Below, piece after piece: positions 3,449-9,164 of a stretch of DNA of 33,953 bases (position 1 is its first letter; every line of letters begins with the position of its first letter). The translations under genes and the position numbers were made by a program. Source of the DNA: a virus; IMG/VR virus record IMGVR_UViG_3300031654_000145, positions 1 through 33,953 of that record. One strand, given 5' to 3'. The notes beneath the pieces were generated by a model. That model did not search any database and was not told where the DNA came from. It was given only the letters and a program-made list of their open reading frames with translations.

Positions 3449-4534
3449 ATGGCGGAAACCCAAAAGAAGCAGCATGTAGAGTTCAATAGGAAGATAAGAC
3501 TCCGCAAGGAGCTGATGGAGAAGGCCGGCAAGCTGACCGGCGCCTTCTATATACCCTTCATCGGCGAGGGCGATATAGCGGTCGCCTTATATAGTAATAA
3601 TAGTATATATGGCGCCGACATCGACCCAGCCATGGTCGAGACAGCCAGATCCCGGTTGCCAAACGCCAATATAATAACCGCCGACTGCGACCAGTTTCCG
3701 TTCTATATAGAGGATATAGAAAAGAAAGCCACATACTCACTCGCCGACTTCGACTCCTATTCCTACCCATATGATTCCTTTCGTAGCTTCTTCAAGGGGG
3801 CTAAATTAAGCCCTCAGTGCGTCTTAATCTTCACAGATGGACAGAGACAGGCTATTATACGCACCGGCCACTATAGAACGCCCGATGGAGAGAAGCATCA
3901 CCTTAAAACAGTAACCGAAAAGAGAGAGGTTTATAACTTCTATTATAATAGAATAATACTACCCTGGTTTAATGAATATATAAAGCCATATGAGGTAGTT
4001 TACATAACGAAATACCTCCGTAGTATGAATCAGCTATGCTGGGGTGCTGTAATAGCTCTCCCTTCAATAGAGAGCCATATAGAGAAGGAGAACGAAAACG
4101 GGGGGATCAAACCATACAAATTCGACGCTATAAAAAAGGCCAAGTATCTTGAGCATATAGGGAATGGGCAGACTCGGGGGTATGCTGCGACTCTCACCGG
4201 CATCCATCGGCAGACCGTGGCAGCTCACATGAAAGCGGATAAGGAGTTTGCCAGAGCGGTATCTGAAGCTGAAAGTGATGCTATAGGGAAAATGGAGAAC
4301 GCGCTCTTTGAGGCGGGGACTAGCGGGAATGTTACTGCGCAACAAGTATACCTATATAACCGGAACCCCAGGAGATGGGCGGACCGGAGAAATATCCGCA
4401 TTGCCGGCGAAGGCGGCGGACCTGTAGAGGTAGAGATAGATGCCAAAGGAAAACTCATTAGCCTACTCAATCGCATTGCTGCCAGAGCGGGAGAGGCAGA
4501 AGGCAGTAGAGAGCCTAACCCAACAGGAAGCTGA
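3449..4534 (+). CDS. SAM-dependent methyltransferase / small terminase fusion
   Basis: This is a 361-residue protein. Residues ~28-200 look like a class I methyltransferase: a glycine loop (YIPFIGEGDIA), an acidic strand end (YGADIDPAMV) and ADCDQFPF. A DFDSYSYPYDSF segment at ~100-110 recalls the Trm1-like DxDxxxxP region. Residues ~218-330 look like a small terminase (TerS) DNA-binding module: an HTH with GYAATLTGIHRQTVAAHM, then helices ending YLYNRNPRRWADR, as in TerS proteins with a homeodomain-like HTH. Position directly before the large terminase supports the TerS call. TerS recognises packaging sites; the methyltransferase substrate is unknown. The ribosome binding site is weak (AGGCGG) and the gene overlaps the large terminase by 95 bases. 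No internal stop separates the halves. Confidence 0.75.
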   Translation: MAETQKKQHVEFNRKIRLRKELMEKAGKLTGAFYIPFIGEGDIAVALYSNNSIYGADIDPAMVETARSRLPNANIITADCDQFPFYIEDIEKKATYSLADFDSYSYPYDSFRSFFKGAKLSPQCVLIFTDGQRQAIIRTGHYRTPDGEKHHLKTVTEKREVYNFYYNRIILPWFNEYIKPYEVVYITKYLRSMNQLCWGAVIALPSIESHIEKENENGGIKPYKFDAIKKAKYLEHIGNGQTRGYAATLTGIHRQTVAAHMKADKEFARAVSEAESDAIGKMENALFEAGTSGNVTAQQVYLYNRNPRRWADRRNIRIAGEGGGPVEVEIDAKGKLISLLNRIAARAGEAEGSREPNPTGS

Positions 4535-6494
4535 AGCTCTTATATATGACTGGGAAGTATGGGCTAGGCCGAAGCAACTACCGCCTGACTGGAACTGGTA
4601 TATATGGCTATTGCTCAGCGGCCGTGGCGGTGGCAAGACTCGCACCGGTGCCGAGCTGACCGTCAAGTGGGCAAGAGAGGGATTCAGCCCTATAGCCCTG
4701 GTTGGGCAGACTAAGGCCGATGTCAGGGATACCATGGTTGAGGTCGGGGAGTCGGCAATACTCAATATATGCCCGCCATGGTTCAGGCCTGATTACGAGT
4801 CTTCAAAGCGCCGGCTGACATTCCCCAATGGAGTGCTGGCCATAATCTATTCAGGGGATGAGCCGGATCAGCTTCGCGGACCGCAGCATTGTTTTGTCGC
4901 TGGAACTTTGATAGCAACTCCTTGTGGTGAGCGACCGATAGAGACAATCAAAAAAGGCGACTATGTTATAACTCGTCAAGGGAAATGTAGGGTAGTAGAA
5001 ACTTTTAGCAGAGTCGCTGAAGTGGGGCGAGTCAAGTTCTCAAATGGCACTGAACTGATTGCAACAAGACAGCACTATGTGTTACAATTGCTTGGGTGGA
5101 TGAGGATAGTAGACTTAAAAAAGGGGGCAATTGTATGCACTGGCGAGAAACTTCTAACGGATATATCGCAGCCTATTTTGATGGCAAGAAGGTTTACCAA
5201 CACAGATGGGTTTGGGAACAACATCACGGGCCTATCCCAAAGGGTTTTGAAGTTCATCACAGGGATGAGGTTAAAAAGCACAACGATATTAGCAACCTGT
5301 TTCTCAAGGCAAAGTCACCGCATCGTCGCCTACATGACCGAACTAGGGAAAGAATTATGGTTAAGTGCGAAGATTGCGGGGCAGACATTGCTAGGATTAG
5401 AAATTACCCCAGTCCCGCAGTTTGCAGGAGCTGCCAATCTAAACGAGCAGAGGAACGGCGTAAATCAGATAGGATATGCCAAGTATGTGGCAGCCACTAT
5501 AAATCAAGAGAGCGGGATTTCAACAAGGGGAACTTCTGTAGCCAGCGTTGTGTCAACTTGGGAGCACGCTGGGCGGGCAAAGGTCTATAACCTTACAGTA
5601 GAAGACCAGCCCGAATATATAGCTAATAGTATTATCGTTCACAATTGCAAGGCGTGGGTAGATGAGCTGAGCAAGTTCAAGTATCCGCAGGACACCTGGG
5701 ACAACCTGATGTTCGGCTTGCGTATAGGAGATAAGCCCCAGGCAGTGGTTACCACCACACCGCGACCAATCAAGGCCATTAAGGCACTGGTGGAGGATAG
5801 CAGGACGGCGGTCACCCGAGGACATACCCTGGAGAACAAGGACAATCTGGCACCTGACTTCTTGAACTATATCCTGAGAAAGTATGAAGGCACCAGGCTC
5901 GGTCGGCAGGAACTGGCCGGGGAGATACTGGATGATAACCCCGAGGCATTATGGCAGCGGGATAAGATAGATGAGCTGAGGGTGAAGAAGCATCCTGACT
6001 TGACAAGGGTAGTGGTGGCCATAGATCCCCAGGGGACCGACAACCCAGAGTCAGCCGAGACGGGGATTATAGTCGCTGGCATAGCCCATGTCGGTGACCG
6101 GATAGAAGGCTATATCCTGGCTGACATGACACTGAGTGGCTCTCCGGAGAAGTGGGCAAGTGCGGCAGTGGCTGGCTATCATAACTTTAAGGCTGACCGA
6201 ATAGTAGCTGAAGTAAACTTTGGCGGGGATATGGTTGAGAGCATCATTCGAGTTATGGGTGGCGGGATAGCATTTAAGAAAGTCCATGCCAGCCACGGTA
6301 AGTATGTCAGGGCAGAGCCGGTGTCGGCGCTATACGAGCAGGGCAGGGTTCACCATGTTGGATTCTTCCCAGAGTTGGAGGACCAGCTCTGCGAATGGGA
6401 ACCAGGGGATAAGTCTCCGGACAGGCTCGATGCCATGGTCTGGGCGATAACCGAGCTGATGCTTGGGACGGAGAGACTTGTGAGGTTTGGATAA
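4440..6494 (+). CDS. terL: terminase large subunit (intein-containing precursor)
   Basis: The precursor has 684 residues; removing the 252-residue intein (residues 151-402) leaves 432, normal for a TerL. N-terminal ATPase: YDWEVWARPKQLPP, a Walker A of GRGGGKT (residues 61-67, Lys66), and a Walker B of KAWVDEL (Asp408-Glu409) after the intein, in the usual RGPQ-x-AW-DEL context. C-terminal RNase H-like nuclease: AIDPQG with Asp529, EVNFGGD, and SPDRLDAMVWA with Asp664. TerL cuts and translocates phage DNA through the portal. The start overlaps the fused TerS gene by 95 bases; YDWEVWARP near residue 37 fits known N-termini. Activity should need intein splicing, since Walker B is otherwise interrupted. 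Confidence 0.95.
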   Translation: MPKENSLAYSIALLPERERQKAVESLTQQEAEALIYDWEVWARPKQLPPDWNWYIWLLLSGRGGGKTRTGAELTVKWAREGFSPIALVGQTKADVRDTMVEVGESAILNICPPWFRPDYESSKRRLTFPNGVLAIIYSGDEPDQLRGPQHCFVAGTLIATPCGERPIETIKKGDYVITRQGKCRVVETFSRVAEVGRVKFSNGTELIATRQHYVLQLLGWMRIVDLKKGAIVCTGEKLLTDISQPILMARRFTNTDGFGNNITGLSQRVLKFITGMRLKSTTILATCFSRQSHRIVAYMTELGKELWLSAKIAGQTLLGLEITPVPQFAGAANLNEQRNGVNQIGYAKYVAATINQESGISTRGTSVASVVSTWEHAGRAKVYNLTVEDQPEYIANSIIVHNCKAWVDELSKFKYPQDTWDNLMFGLRIGDKPQAVVTTTPRPIKAIKALVEDSRTAVTRGHTLENKDNLAPDFLNYILRKYEGTRLGRQELAGEILDDNPEALWQRDKIDELRVKKHPDLTRVVVAIDPQGTDNPESAETGIIVAGIAHVGDRIEGYILADMTLSGSPEKWASAAVAGYHNFKADRIVAEVNFGGDMVESIIRVMGGGIAFKKVHASHGKYVRAEPVSALYEQGRVHHVGFFPELEDQLCEWEPGDKSPDRLDAMVWAITELMLGTERLVRFG
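4890..5645 (+). other. intein in the terminase large subunit
   Basis: This is a 252-residue in-frame insertion. It starts with Cys (CFVAGTLIATPCGERPIE, splicing block A), has TRQH in block B (ATRQHYVL), and ends with block F/G (VYNLTVEDQPEYIA, then IIVHN) followed by Cys as the +1 residue. Both splice junctions, His|Cys and Asn|Cys, are canonical for class 1 inteins. It interrupts the conserved RGPQ-H/AWVDEL Walker B region. The middle ~150 residues show no LAGLIDADG motif in this frame; that stretch instead encodes an HNH protein in another frame. Confidence 0.92.
5135..5590 (+). CDS. HNH homing endonuclease nested out of frame within the intein
   Basis: This 151-residue protein lies entirely inside the intein DNA but in a different frame from terL. 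The ATG at 5135 has AAGGGGG at 5121-5127, a good Shine-Dalgarno; an ATG at 5096 is in frame but unsupported. The N-terminal half is an HNH_3-like nuclease: QHRWVWEQHHGPIPKG, VHHRDEVKKHNDISNL and PHRRLH give the H-N-H constellation. The C-terminal half has two zinc knuckles (CEDC, CRSC; CQVC, CSQRC) for metal or DNA binding. Homing endonucleases cut intein-less alleles and drive spread of the element. Expression as a separate protein is inferred. Confidence 0.85.
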   Translation: MHWRETSNGYIAAYFDGKKVYQHRWVWEQHHGPIPKGFEVHHRDEVKKHNDISNLFLKAKSPHRRLHDRTRERIMVKCEDCGADIARIRNYPSPAVCRSCQSKRAEERRKSDRICQVCGSHYKSRERDFNKGNFCSQRCVNLGARWAGKGL

Positions 6495-6727: not shown

Positions 6728-7077
6728 GACACTATCGACCGCAAGAGGGATACGGCATCAACTACAGGGATACCGGTTGTAAGTTTGCGCCGTCATGTCT
6801 TAACTGCCCGTTCCCAGAGTGTCTGGAAGTTTTGAAAGATAGGGTTAGAGCTGAAGGAAGGCATATCTCTTCGCCCAAGAAGATGGCTCGAAATCGAGAG
6901 ATACGGCTTGCTTTCGTTCAGGGCAGAACTCAACGTGAAATAGCCAAGGAGTTTGGTGTTCATATAAGGACTGTTCGGCGAGTGTTGAGACAGGCAATGC
7001 CTGAAACGCCACTACAAATCGAGAGTGAATCGCAATATAGGAGAGAAGAATGTTTGACACCTTGCGCAAGCGAATAG
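6724..7077 (+). CDS. Cys4 plus helix-turn-helix protein
   Basis: This is a 117-residue protein starting at ATG 6724, four bases before the previous stop (ATGA). Cys19, Cys25, Cys28 and Cys33 (CKFAPSCLNCPFPEC) form a compact cluster that could bind zinc or an iron-sulfur centre. Residues ~57-92 (REIRLAFVQGRTQREIAKEFG and VRRVLRQA) form a Hin-recombinase or sigma-like HTH that should bind DNA. It overlaps the portal gene by 28 bases. A regulatory role is likely from the fold; redox or metal sensing is speculation. Confidence 0.7.
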   Translation: MRHYRPQEGYGINYRDTGCKFAPSCLNCPFPECLEVLKDRVRAEGRHISSPKKMARNREIRLAFVQGRTQREIAKEFGVHIRTVRRVLRQAMPETPLQIESESQYRREECLTPCASE

Positions 7078-9164
7078 CCGTTGCCCTTCTGCCGAGGTCG
7101 GTTAAGAAGGACGCCATGAGTCCCTTCCAGGTATTGTCAACCCAGTCTCCGAATATACCGGTCTACAGCGAGATGACAGTGCGGAAGGCTACCCGGGAAG
7201 GCTATAAATTGTCGCCCTCTGTCTACCGCGCCGTCAGGGTAATCGTGCAGGCGGCCTCTGGAATCCCCTGGATAGTGGAAGATAATAAGGGCGAAGTCAT
7301 ACCCGACCACGATTTTCCTAAAGTGTGGGCAAAGCCCAATCCTGAATTCTCAGGGCAGGATAATATGGAGTTTATCATCGCCCACCTCAAGCTGACGGGC
7401 AATGCCCTTGTCCAGCCAGTCATAGTCAACGGGAGGCCGAGGGAATTTTGGATATGTATGCCGGATTTAATCCAGCCGATCCCCTCGGATGTTCCAGGAG
7501 AATGGCTGAAGGGTTACAGGGTGACCAGCGGAGACGGCAGGCAGTATGATGTGCCACCCGAGCAGTTCATCCACTTTATGCAGTTCGACCCGGGCAATCC
7601 CTACTGGGGCATGGGCGATTTGCTGGCCGCCGCCAGGACTGTTGACACCGACAACGAGGCACAGGACACGCAGAAGGTATCGATGCAGAACCGAGGTACC
7701 CCTGACGGGGTTTTTGAAGCTGAAGCTATGACCAATGAGCAATATGAAGAAGCAAACCGAATGCTAAAAGAGCGGTACCTGAGCAAAGAGAAGAGGCGCT
7801 TGCCCTGGATAGTGGCCGGGGCTAAATGGCACCAGATGAGCCTAACCCCGGTAGAGATGGACTATATCAAGTCACGGCTCCACAACAAAAGGGATGTAGC
7901 CGGGGCATTTGGCATCAGCCCCATATTCCTGGGCGACCTCGAGCAGTCCAGCTATGCCAACATGATGGAAGCCCGCAAGGCTCTGTATGAAGACGTGGTG
8001 ATCCCGCTGCTGGACGATATAAAGTCCACGCTGAACCTCAAGATAGCCCCGATGTATGGGGATATAGTCATAACCTACGATGTGTCCCGCATACCGGCTC
8101 TGCGGGAAGACTACGGCAAGAAGGTAGACCAGGCACAGAAGCTATGGCAAATGGGCATCCCATTCGACCAGATAAATCAGAGACTGGAGATGGGTTTTGA
8201 GGAGTTCCCGGGCTGGGGCAGGGGATATCTGCCATTGAACCTGCTACCGACCAGTGGCTCGTCAGCCCCAGCTCCAGAAGAGCCGAAATCACTGGAAGAG
8301 TTTGAGAAAATGATGCCCAAGACCTTGGCTGAAGCTATCCCCTGGCTTGAAGAAATGCGAGGCAGGGTATCTGATAAGTGGATTAGTGATGCGATGAAAG
8401 CCCTCAATCTCCAGACCGAGGAGGCTAAAACAGCCCACTGGAAGCGTATAGACAGGCGCCGAGTGGCTTGGTGGGGAGTGGTGAGTAATAAGATTAAGCC
8501 GCTGTATGAGGCAGAGGTAAGAGCCATTGAGAAAGCTATCAGGGGAAAGAAGCCTGATAAGTTACTATCCGCAGCCGATGGAGCTATAGACAGCGGAAAG
8601 GCTGAGTGGGAGAAGGTGCTGACAGCGGTTTGCGCTGCCCTCATTGAGGACTTCGGTAGTGAGATAGCCGAAGACCTCGGTGCGGAGAAATCAGATAAGC
8701 CCACTGAGACAAAGTGGATGTTTGACCCGATGAGTGCGACAGCCAGGGCGTGGCTAGTCAAGCACGGCGCCGAGAGCATCAAGACCATACTGGCCACTAA
8801 CCTAGATGATGTTAAGCGAGTTATCTTGGCGGGAACGGATGAGAACCTGAGCACCGCACAGATAGGTAGGAACCTTCGGCAGTTCTACACGGACAGGTCG
8901 GCTTTCAAGGCGATGCGTGTAGCCAGGACTGAGACATCTCATGCTGCGGGCTTTGGGCAGAGAGAGGCCGCCAGGCAGTCGGGAGTAGTGAAGACAAAGA
9001 GTTGGATTTCAAGCCGGGACGATAGGGTCCGGGATGAGCATGTTCTTATGGATACTGACGAGAACCACGACATACCCTTTGATAAACCCTATTCAGACGG
9101 CTCAATGTATCCAGGCGAGCTAGCTATCAACTGCCGATGTGTTGAAAGCTATGGGACAAGATAG
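7050..9164 (+). CDS. portal protein fused to MuF-like minor head protein
   Basis: This is a 704-residue protein; the ATG at 7050 has AGGAGAGAAG upstream. Residues ~40-400 match HK97-type portals: an N-terminal LSPSVYRAVRVI segment, PPEQFIHF, and the AGAFGISPIFLGDLEQSSYANMMEARKALYE core. Portals form the dodecameric DNA gate at one capsid vertex. Residues ~570-704 match the phage Mu gpF (MuF) domain, with RVARTETSHAAG and a C-terminal NCRCVESY. MuF proteins are minor head components associated with the portal. A Ser/Pro/Ala-rich linker (~405-415) and a charged helical region join the two. It overlaps the Cys4-HTH gene upstream and is followed by the prohead protease, as usual. Confidence 0.92.
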   Translation: MFDTLRKRIAVALLPRSVKKDAMSPFQVLSTQSPNIPVYSEMTVRKATREGYKLSPSVYRAVRVIVQAASGIPWIVEDNKGEVIPDHDFPKVWAKPNPEFSGQDNMEFIIAHLKLTGNALVQPVIVNGRPREFWICMPDLIQPIPSDVPGEWLKGYRVTSGDGRQYDVPPEQFIHFMQFDPGNPYWGMGDLLAAARTVDTDNEAQDTQKVSMQNRGTPDGVFEAEAMTNEQYEEANRMLKERYLSKEKRRLPWIVAGAKWHQMSLTPVEMDYIKSRLHNKRDVAGAFGISPIFLGDLEQSSYANMMEARKALYEDVVIPLLDDIKSTLNLKIAPMYGDIVITYDVSRIPALREDYGKKVDQAQKLWQMGIPFDQINQRLEMGFEEFPGWGRGYLPLNLLPTSGSSAPAPEEPKSLEEFEKMMPKTLAEAIPWLEEMRGRVSDKWISDAMKALNLQTEEAKTAHWKRIDRRRVAWWGVVSNKIKPLYEAEVRAIEKAIRGKKPDKLLSAADGAIDSGKAEWEKVLTAVCAALIEDFGSEIAEDLGAEKSDKPTETKWMFDPMSATARAWLVKHGAESIKTILATNLDDVKRVILAGTDENLSTAQIGRNLRQFYTDRSAFKAMRVARTETSHAAGFGQREAARQSGVVKTKSWISSRDDRVRDEHVLMDTDENHDIPFDKPYSDGSMYPGELAINCRCVESYGTR

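Follow-up and report, generated by a model that had tools for sequence, protein, structure and literature searches.

The large terminase (TerL) gene of this virus most probably carries a mobile class 1 intein whose homing endonuclease is a separately initiated gene, overprinted in the -1 frame on a dispensable linker; we give this reading a probability of about 0.86. The window, i.e., the whole stretch of DNA analysed, is a 33,953-base IMG/VR virus record from an uncultivated assembly. The same bases code in two frames, and selection acts on both.

The TerL ORF occupies 4440-6494 on the + strand (Terminase_6N 9e-19, Terminase_6C 6e-15), as do all the features of the locus described here. Its N-extein lies at 4440-4889, its intein of 252 codons at 4890-5645 (Hint_2 9e-12, Intein_splicing 4.6e-11), and its C-extein begins at the cysteine at 5646; the continuous 252-codon intein of the original prediction was exact and in frame with TerL. 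The insertion site is directly before the TerL Walker B motif (GPQH|CKAWVDEL). The intein starts with Cys1 and ends with VHN, followed by the +1 Cys (5646-5648). By HMM match, an N-terminal Hint subdomain (4890-5159) contains blocks A and B with TxxH at residues 59-62, and a C-terminal Hint subdomain (5532-5645) contains blocks F and G, ending in VHN|C. This is a class 1 signature, in which C1, T59-H62 and VHN|C vary little or not at all among 40 homologs.

We generated predicted protein structures with AlphaFold using alignments of the loci collected in this analysis, with L048 left out. The intein model is confident across most of both Hint halves (pLDDT 96-98; 87-98 over the whole N-terminal and 80-98 over the whole C-terminal subdomain), whereas the open, unconserved linker between them (5160-5531), which the HNH gene overlaps, is predicted to be disordered (pLDDT 44-71). 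A domain search of the intein-frame middle retrieved no recognised domain, as had been expected of it from the sequence. Foldseek matched the model to the gp41-1 and Ssp DnaB inteins with TM scores (target) of 0.72-0.86, as expected of a Hint fold, and its matches also include the Mtu RecA intein. With the catalytic residues present and the fold predicted, the intein would be expected to splice. A group I intron carrying a homing endonuclease gene was rejected: Rfam gave no match at an E value of 1 or below, and the host frame is open throughout.

Elsewhere in the window, the gene at 3449-4534 has a small terminase signature (PHROG 309, residues 251-335) behind an N-terminal region resembling Methyltransf_25, a SAM methyltransferase family (8.7e-5, below the cut-off), which would be an unusual TerS fusion. 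The gene at 7050-9164 joins a portal protein to a Mu F-like head morphogenesis domain, and a radical SAM protein gene lies at 1010-1750, upstream of the packaging genes.

Wholly within the intein, in its +2 (= -1) frame, is an ATG-initiated gene of 151 codons plus TAA (5135-5590) whose product matches the Pfam family HNH_3 (1.4e-15; 57 bits against a cut-off of 24.8). The second frame, its ribosome binding site and its likeness to an HNH_3 endonuclease with two zinc knuckles had all been proposed beforehand, and all were confirmed. The HNH catalytic region (5201-5323) holds H23, H41-H42, N50, N54 and H63 in invariant or nearly invariant alignment columns over 37-43 homologs. A first zinc knuckle, CEDC...CRSC, seen in the sequence and in the alignment, spans 5366-5434, and a second, CQVC...CSQRC, spans 5477-5551, where C115/C118 and C135/C139 show little or no variation; the two follow the patterns CxxC..CxxC and CxxC..CxxxC. 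The HNH-frame model has a mean pLDDT of 90.9, and its top PDB match by Foldseek is I-HmuI (E 6.6e-3, probability 1.00), with which it shares the features of that kind of homing endonuclease, namely an HNH motif with conserved His and Asn and zinc knuckles. Going by the contrast in AlphaFold confidence, one set of bases encodes disorder in the intein frame and a fold in the HNH frame. The HNH gene begins shortly before the N-terminal Hint half is complete and stops about 20 codons into the C-terminal half; endonucleases of inteins are usually inserted between the Hint subdomains (PMC6801210), and the start and stop of this gene therefore place it at the usual insertion point.

A Shine-Dalgarno sequence, AAAAAGGGGG (5119-5128), stands 7 nt before the ATG, with a duplex energy of -10.7 kcal/mol, and such a good site suggests that translation initiates internally at ATG 5135. 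Locus L051 has an AAGGAGG Shine-Dalgarno sequence and an ATG at the same place. Across nested HNH starts, pairing is stronger than in controls (median -5.85 vs -4.0, p 0.004), and several nested relatives are missing a clear Shine-Dalgarno sequence.

We searched viral contigs, GTDB genomes and phage records for inteins with HNH genes, screening with home-made HintN, HintC and HNH profiles. The search of other inteins that the original prediction had recommended yielded 82 distinct contiguous inteins with an HNH gene nested in the -1 phase and four in the +1 phase (L132, L188, L192 and L207), and the home-made HNH profile found no in-frame relatives. Members in the -1 phase include the isolates Tetrasphaera phage TJE1 and Acinetobacter phage Highwayman, as well as Rhodobacteraceae phage LS06 and the Bacteroides mediterraneensis chromosome. 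Such recurrence in dozens of unrelated phages means that the arrangement is under selection and not an accident. What had been put forward as a single case of dual coding is real and was undersold, the architecture being widespread and phase-locked. Among the nested inteins examined, the host protein is mostly TerL, and the insertions fall mainly in two places, the region of Walker B (the site in the window) and a D..RY motif, which we take to be in the TerL nuclease domain. One TerL ORF (L206, 1251-3017) contains two inteins, each with its own out-of-frame HNH gene. On the HNH protein tree, the nested state is clearly clustered (18 changes vs 46 when shuffled), and the deep branches are too poorly supported to place the nested and split states in order. 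Overprinting is also not confined to HNH genes, since an intein in an SNF2-type helicase (L079, 2501-3420) carries a DUF559 nuclease in the +1 frame (1.7e-6, above the cut-off) and stays open across it. The DUF559 nuclease is restriction-like, of a family unrelated to HNH.

Selection for an open intein frame can be read from the stops that the nested genes avoid. Read in the intein frame, the nested HNH genes contain 0 stops in 14,378 codons, a count conditioned, like any count of contiguous inteins, on that frame being open. The -1 frame contains 168 stops in 5008 codons (3.35%) of 37 free-standing HNH genes and 94 in 2426 (3.9%) of 13 HNH genes from split inteins. Only a frame-blind HNH scan, in which 36 Hint-HNH-Hint loci were contiguous and 11 split, and, in part, the codon-choice contrasts escape this conditioning; the scan is the fair count because calling a locus contiguous presupposes the open frame. 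A -1-frame stop arises where a codon ending in TA or TG precedes a purine. Among Leu, Ile and Val codons, 144 of 401 in free-standing genes would make such a stop, compared with 0 of 907 in nested genes (Fisher 7e-84). A Met codon followed by one that starts with A also makes a stop, and no synonymous change can remove it; this combination is found in 0 of 114 nested vs 24 of 76 free-standing cases (2e-11), which shows constraint on the amino-acid sequence of the HNH protein. Nests in the +1 phase carry ordinary -1-frame stops and avoid T-ending codons before AA, AG or GA (0/47 vs 456/845, or 54%; 6e-16). In the window's HNH gene, 0 of 10 Leu, Ile and Val codons before a purine are stop-making, compared with 132 of 311 in the phage's other genes.

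At the stop rate of the free-standing genes, simple arithmetic leaves a fraction of a percent of such genes open by chance. Stops per codon in HNH genes run at about 8-9% in the third frame and about 3% in the -1 frame, and opening the -1 frame needs far fewer changes because the third frame is richer in stops. The 82:4 phase bias needs no cause beyond this stop frequency, though shared ancestry contributes.

The substitution pattern, compared in both frames as the original prediction had advised, points in the same direction. The third codon position of the HNH gene is the second position of the intein codon, and in six homolog pairs substitutions within the overlap fall mostly at HNH position 3 while those in the Hint halves fall at intein position 3, a flip in codon-position bias with chi-square p of 2e-3 to 2e-7. 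Between the window and L051, changes at the three intein codon positions number 38/67/42 for the overlap, against 22/17/51 for the Hint regions (p 1.3e-5). The dN/dS values are rough because the Nei-Gojobori method ignores overlap and is biased in overlapping frames; they are about 0.17-0.26 for the HNH frame (five pairs, the sixth being saturated), 0.6-1.6, near neutral, for the overlapped stretch of the intein frame, and 0.06-0.23 for the conserved HintN. The intein linker thus appears to be kept open and otherwise to be nearly free to change; near-neutral values together with 0 stops bear out the suggestion that selection acts mainly to keep it open.

These data bear on two rival explanations, both of which we consider to have almost no chance of being correct. 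The window comes from an uncultivated assembly, and genuine split inteins with an HNH gene between their halves occur among its relatives, so one could suppose that an assembly or sequencing indel has split one frame into two, the true locus being a canonical intein with an in-frame HNH or a split intein. However, the intein frame is open through the whole HNH gene and takes in both Hint halves, codon choice bears the mark of long-term selection, and the phase is common to 82 distinct loci, including the TJE1 and Highwayman isolates and the B. mediterraneensis chromosome; this recurrence refutes an indel artefact. The two outcomes named in advance as fatal to the original prediction, homologous inteins without a conserved HNH frame or an indel artefact, did not materialise, as homologous inteins keep the frame and the artefact is excluded. 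Alternatively, the HNH gene could be functional and the intein-frame overlap open by luck, without selection for continuity. Some GC-rich members do keep the -1 frame open under synonymous shuffling, with values up to 0.73, but the window's own value is 0.5-2% over its synonymous shuffles (0.5% of trials when randomised with extein codon usage), 161-264 intein-frame stops would be expected over all members where none is seen, and free-standing or split relatives carry -1-frame stops freely. Shuffling and stop counts together reject a chance open frame.

The presence of the intein at a fixed TerL site is sporadic. Twenty-five TerL relatives, up to 84.6% identical, are uninterrupted at the window's insertion site, and six loci (L051, L052, L053, L055, L103 and L131) have nested inteins at that site or a few residues away. 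Related free-standing HNH genes directly adjoin terL in phages PAE1, SN1, FBPa53 and EauM-23 and lie near it in BP10 and Shemara. In Lactobacillus phage CL2 and Vibrio phage 1.245.O, a related HNH gene sits between the two halves of an intein. Split inteins with the window's HNH family between their halves were found at L046, L147, L153, L154, L165-L167, L169, L178, L191, L193, L203 and L225; the host is TerL at L046 and L225. All of these are candidate new natural split inteins. In a Pelotomaculum MAG (L211, 2501-3220), the nested HNH gene has acquired a stop and no longer has its catalytic core, with the intein frame still open, and about 10 inteins have a short linker and no HNH gene. The empty, nested, split, decayed and HNH-less forms look like stages of a homing cycle that inter-converts with split inteins. 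The family resemblance to I-HmuI and this pattern of presence and absence suggest that the HNH protein cleaves DNA and promotes homing, and it is probably the nuclease that spreads the intein.

Two further alternatives concern what the HNH product is, and the stronger of them is still unlikely. It holds that the protein is a terminase-associated packaging nuclease of the HK97 gp74 type that merely happens to be located in an intein, which would fit the free-standing relatives beside or near terL; terminase-adjacent HNH proteins can act as packaging factors, at least as Kala et al. 2014 is cited in PMC10448857. Against this, several close TerL relatives have neither the intein nor an HNH_3 match (in records that are fragments), both the domain plan and the top structural match point to I-HmuI, a homing enzyme, related nested HNH genes occupy several different TerL insertion sites, and a helicase intein has the DUF559 nuclease in the corresponding place. 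Less probable again is a programmed -1 frameshift from the TerL-HintN frame, which would yield a HintN-HNH fusion and not a separately initiated protein. The window has a dnaX-type heptamer, A_AAA_AAG (5117-5123), in the exact register for a -1 shift into the HNH frame, and 17 of the 82 nested loci have some heptamer in this register, compared with 8 and 10 in the other registers. Nevertheless, 65 of the 82 have none, the closest relative, L051, lacks the heptamer yet keeps its Shine-Dalgarno sequence and ATG, a hairpin sought downstream of the window's heptamer was not found (z 0.32), and a HintN-HNH product would come at the cost of its own precursor. The heptamer is probably incidental.

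Under our preferred reading of a mobile intein with an overprinted homing endonuclease, ribosomes in the TerL frame would make a precursor in which the two Hint halves, joined by the long disordered linker, fold and splice out to give TerL, while ribosomes initiating at ATG 5135 would make the free HNH nuclease. During co-infection, terL alleles that lack the intein would be cleaved by this nuclease in or around GPQH|xAWxDE, and repair of the cut copies would bring in the intein together with its nested gene.

Whether this extends beyond individual loci is a question on which we lean slightly to one side: at a little better than even odds, the overprinted linker is a general and undescribed architecture, usual for the HNH-bearing inteins of phage TerL, phase-locked, invented multiple times and interconvertible with split inteins. 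The phase lock would then follow from the -1 frame of HNH genes needing the fewest codon changes, the repeated invention would cover both phases as well as nucleases of two unrelated families, and one stop or frameshift would be enough to turn such an intein into a split one or back. At the window's locus, a probable mobile element uses the same bases twice, its linker held open for the sake of an essential host gene and sheltering a nuclease gene without fusion to the splicing protein. The arrangement points to a possible passage between contiguous inteins and naturally split ones, and more than 80 distinct cases with clear selection on both frames allow quantitative tests of how overprinted genes are maintained. 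Nested nucleases are easily missed because gene callers drop one of the frames; the TJE1, LS06 and Highwayman loci are annotated as terminase only.

Canonical large inteins contain an in-frame homing endonuclease, usually LAGLIDADG and rarely HNH. They resemble the window in having the endonuclease between the Hint subdomains (PMC6801210) and in the proposed homing cycle. Their endonuclease is a domain of one polypeptide, whereas the window's HNH is encoded in the -1 frame as a separate protein. Fractured genes, said to have been reported by Dassa et al. in 2009, contain a split intein whose halves flank a free-standing endonuclease; gp41-1, among the closest fold matches, is a split intein from such a locus. 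They share with the window an endonuclease gene between HintN and HintC, but their host gene is divided between two ORFs, while here HintN and HintC both lie within the continuous ORF 4440-6494 and the endonuclease overlaps it. In collaborative homing, a free-standing homing endonuclease gene sits beside an intron-bearing gene (PMC10448857), comparable to the free-standing HNH genes of the window's family beside terL in isolates; those are separate genes, whereas the intein and endonuclease gene of the window share bases.

The original prediction knew of no described system exactly like this one, and in the open-access literature we found no out-of-frame nuclease within a true intein, but a close precedent exists. 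A bioRxiv preprint on actinobacteriophage inteins and "non-canonical architecture" (Gosselin, Arsenault and Gogarten 2025) may, to go by its title and by PMC11855218, which cites it on overlapping frames, report related and possibly overlapping arrangements. Among published elements, the closest is the hidden HNH of the ShiLan domain, an insertion in a phage DNA methylase (Arsenault, Gosselin and Gogarten 2025, PMC11855218). Like the window's intein, the ShiLan domain is open in the frame of the host gene, encodes an out-of-frame HNH with zinc fingers and is sporadic among relatives. Unlike it, the ShiLan domain has no detectable splicing domain or ribosome binding site and stays in the host protein as a loop (PMC11855218), whereas the window's HNH gene is surrounded by a complete intein that matches both Hint_2 and Intein_splicing.
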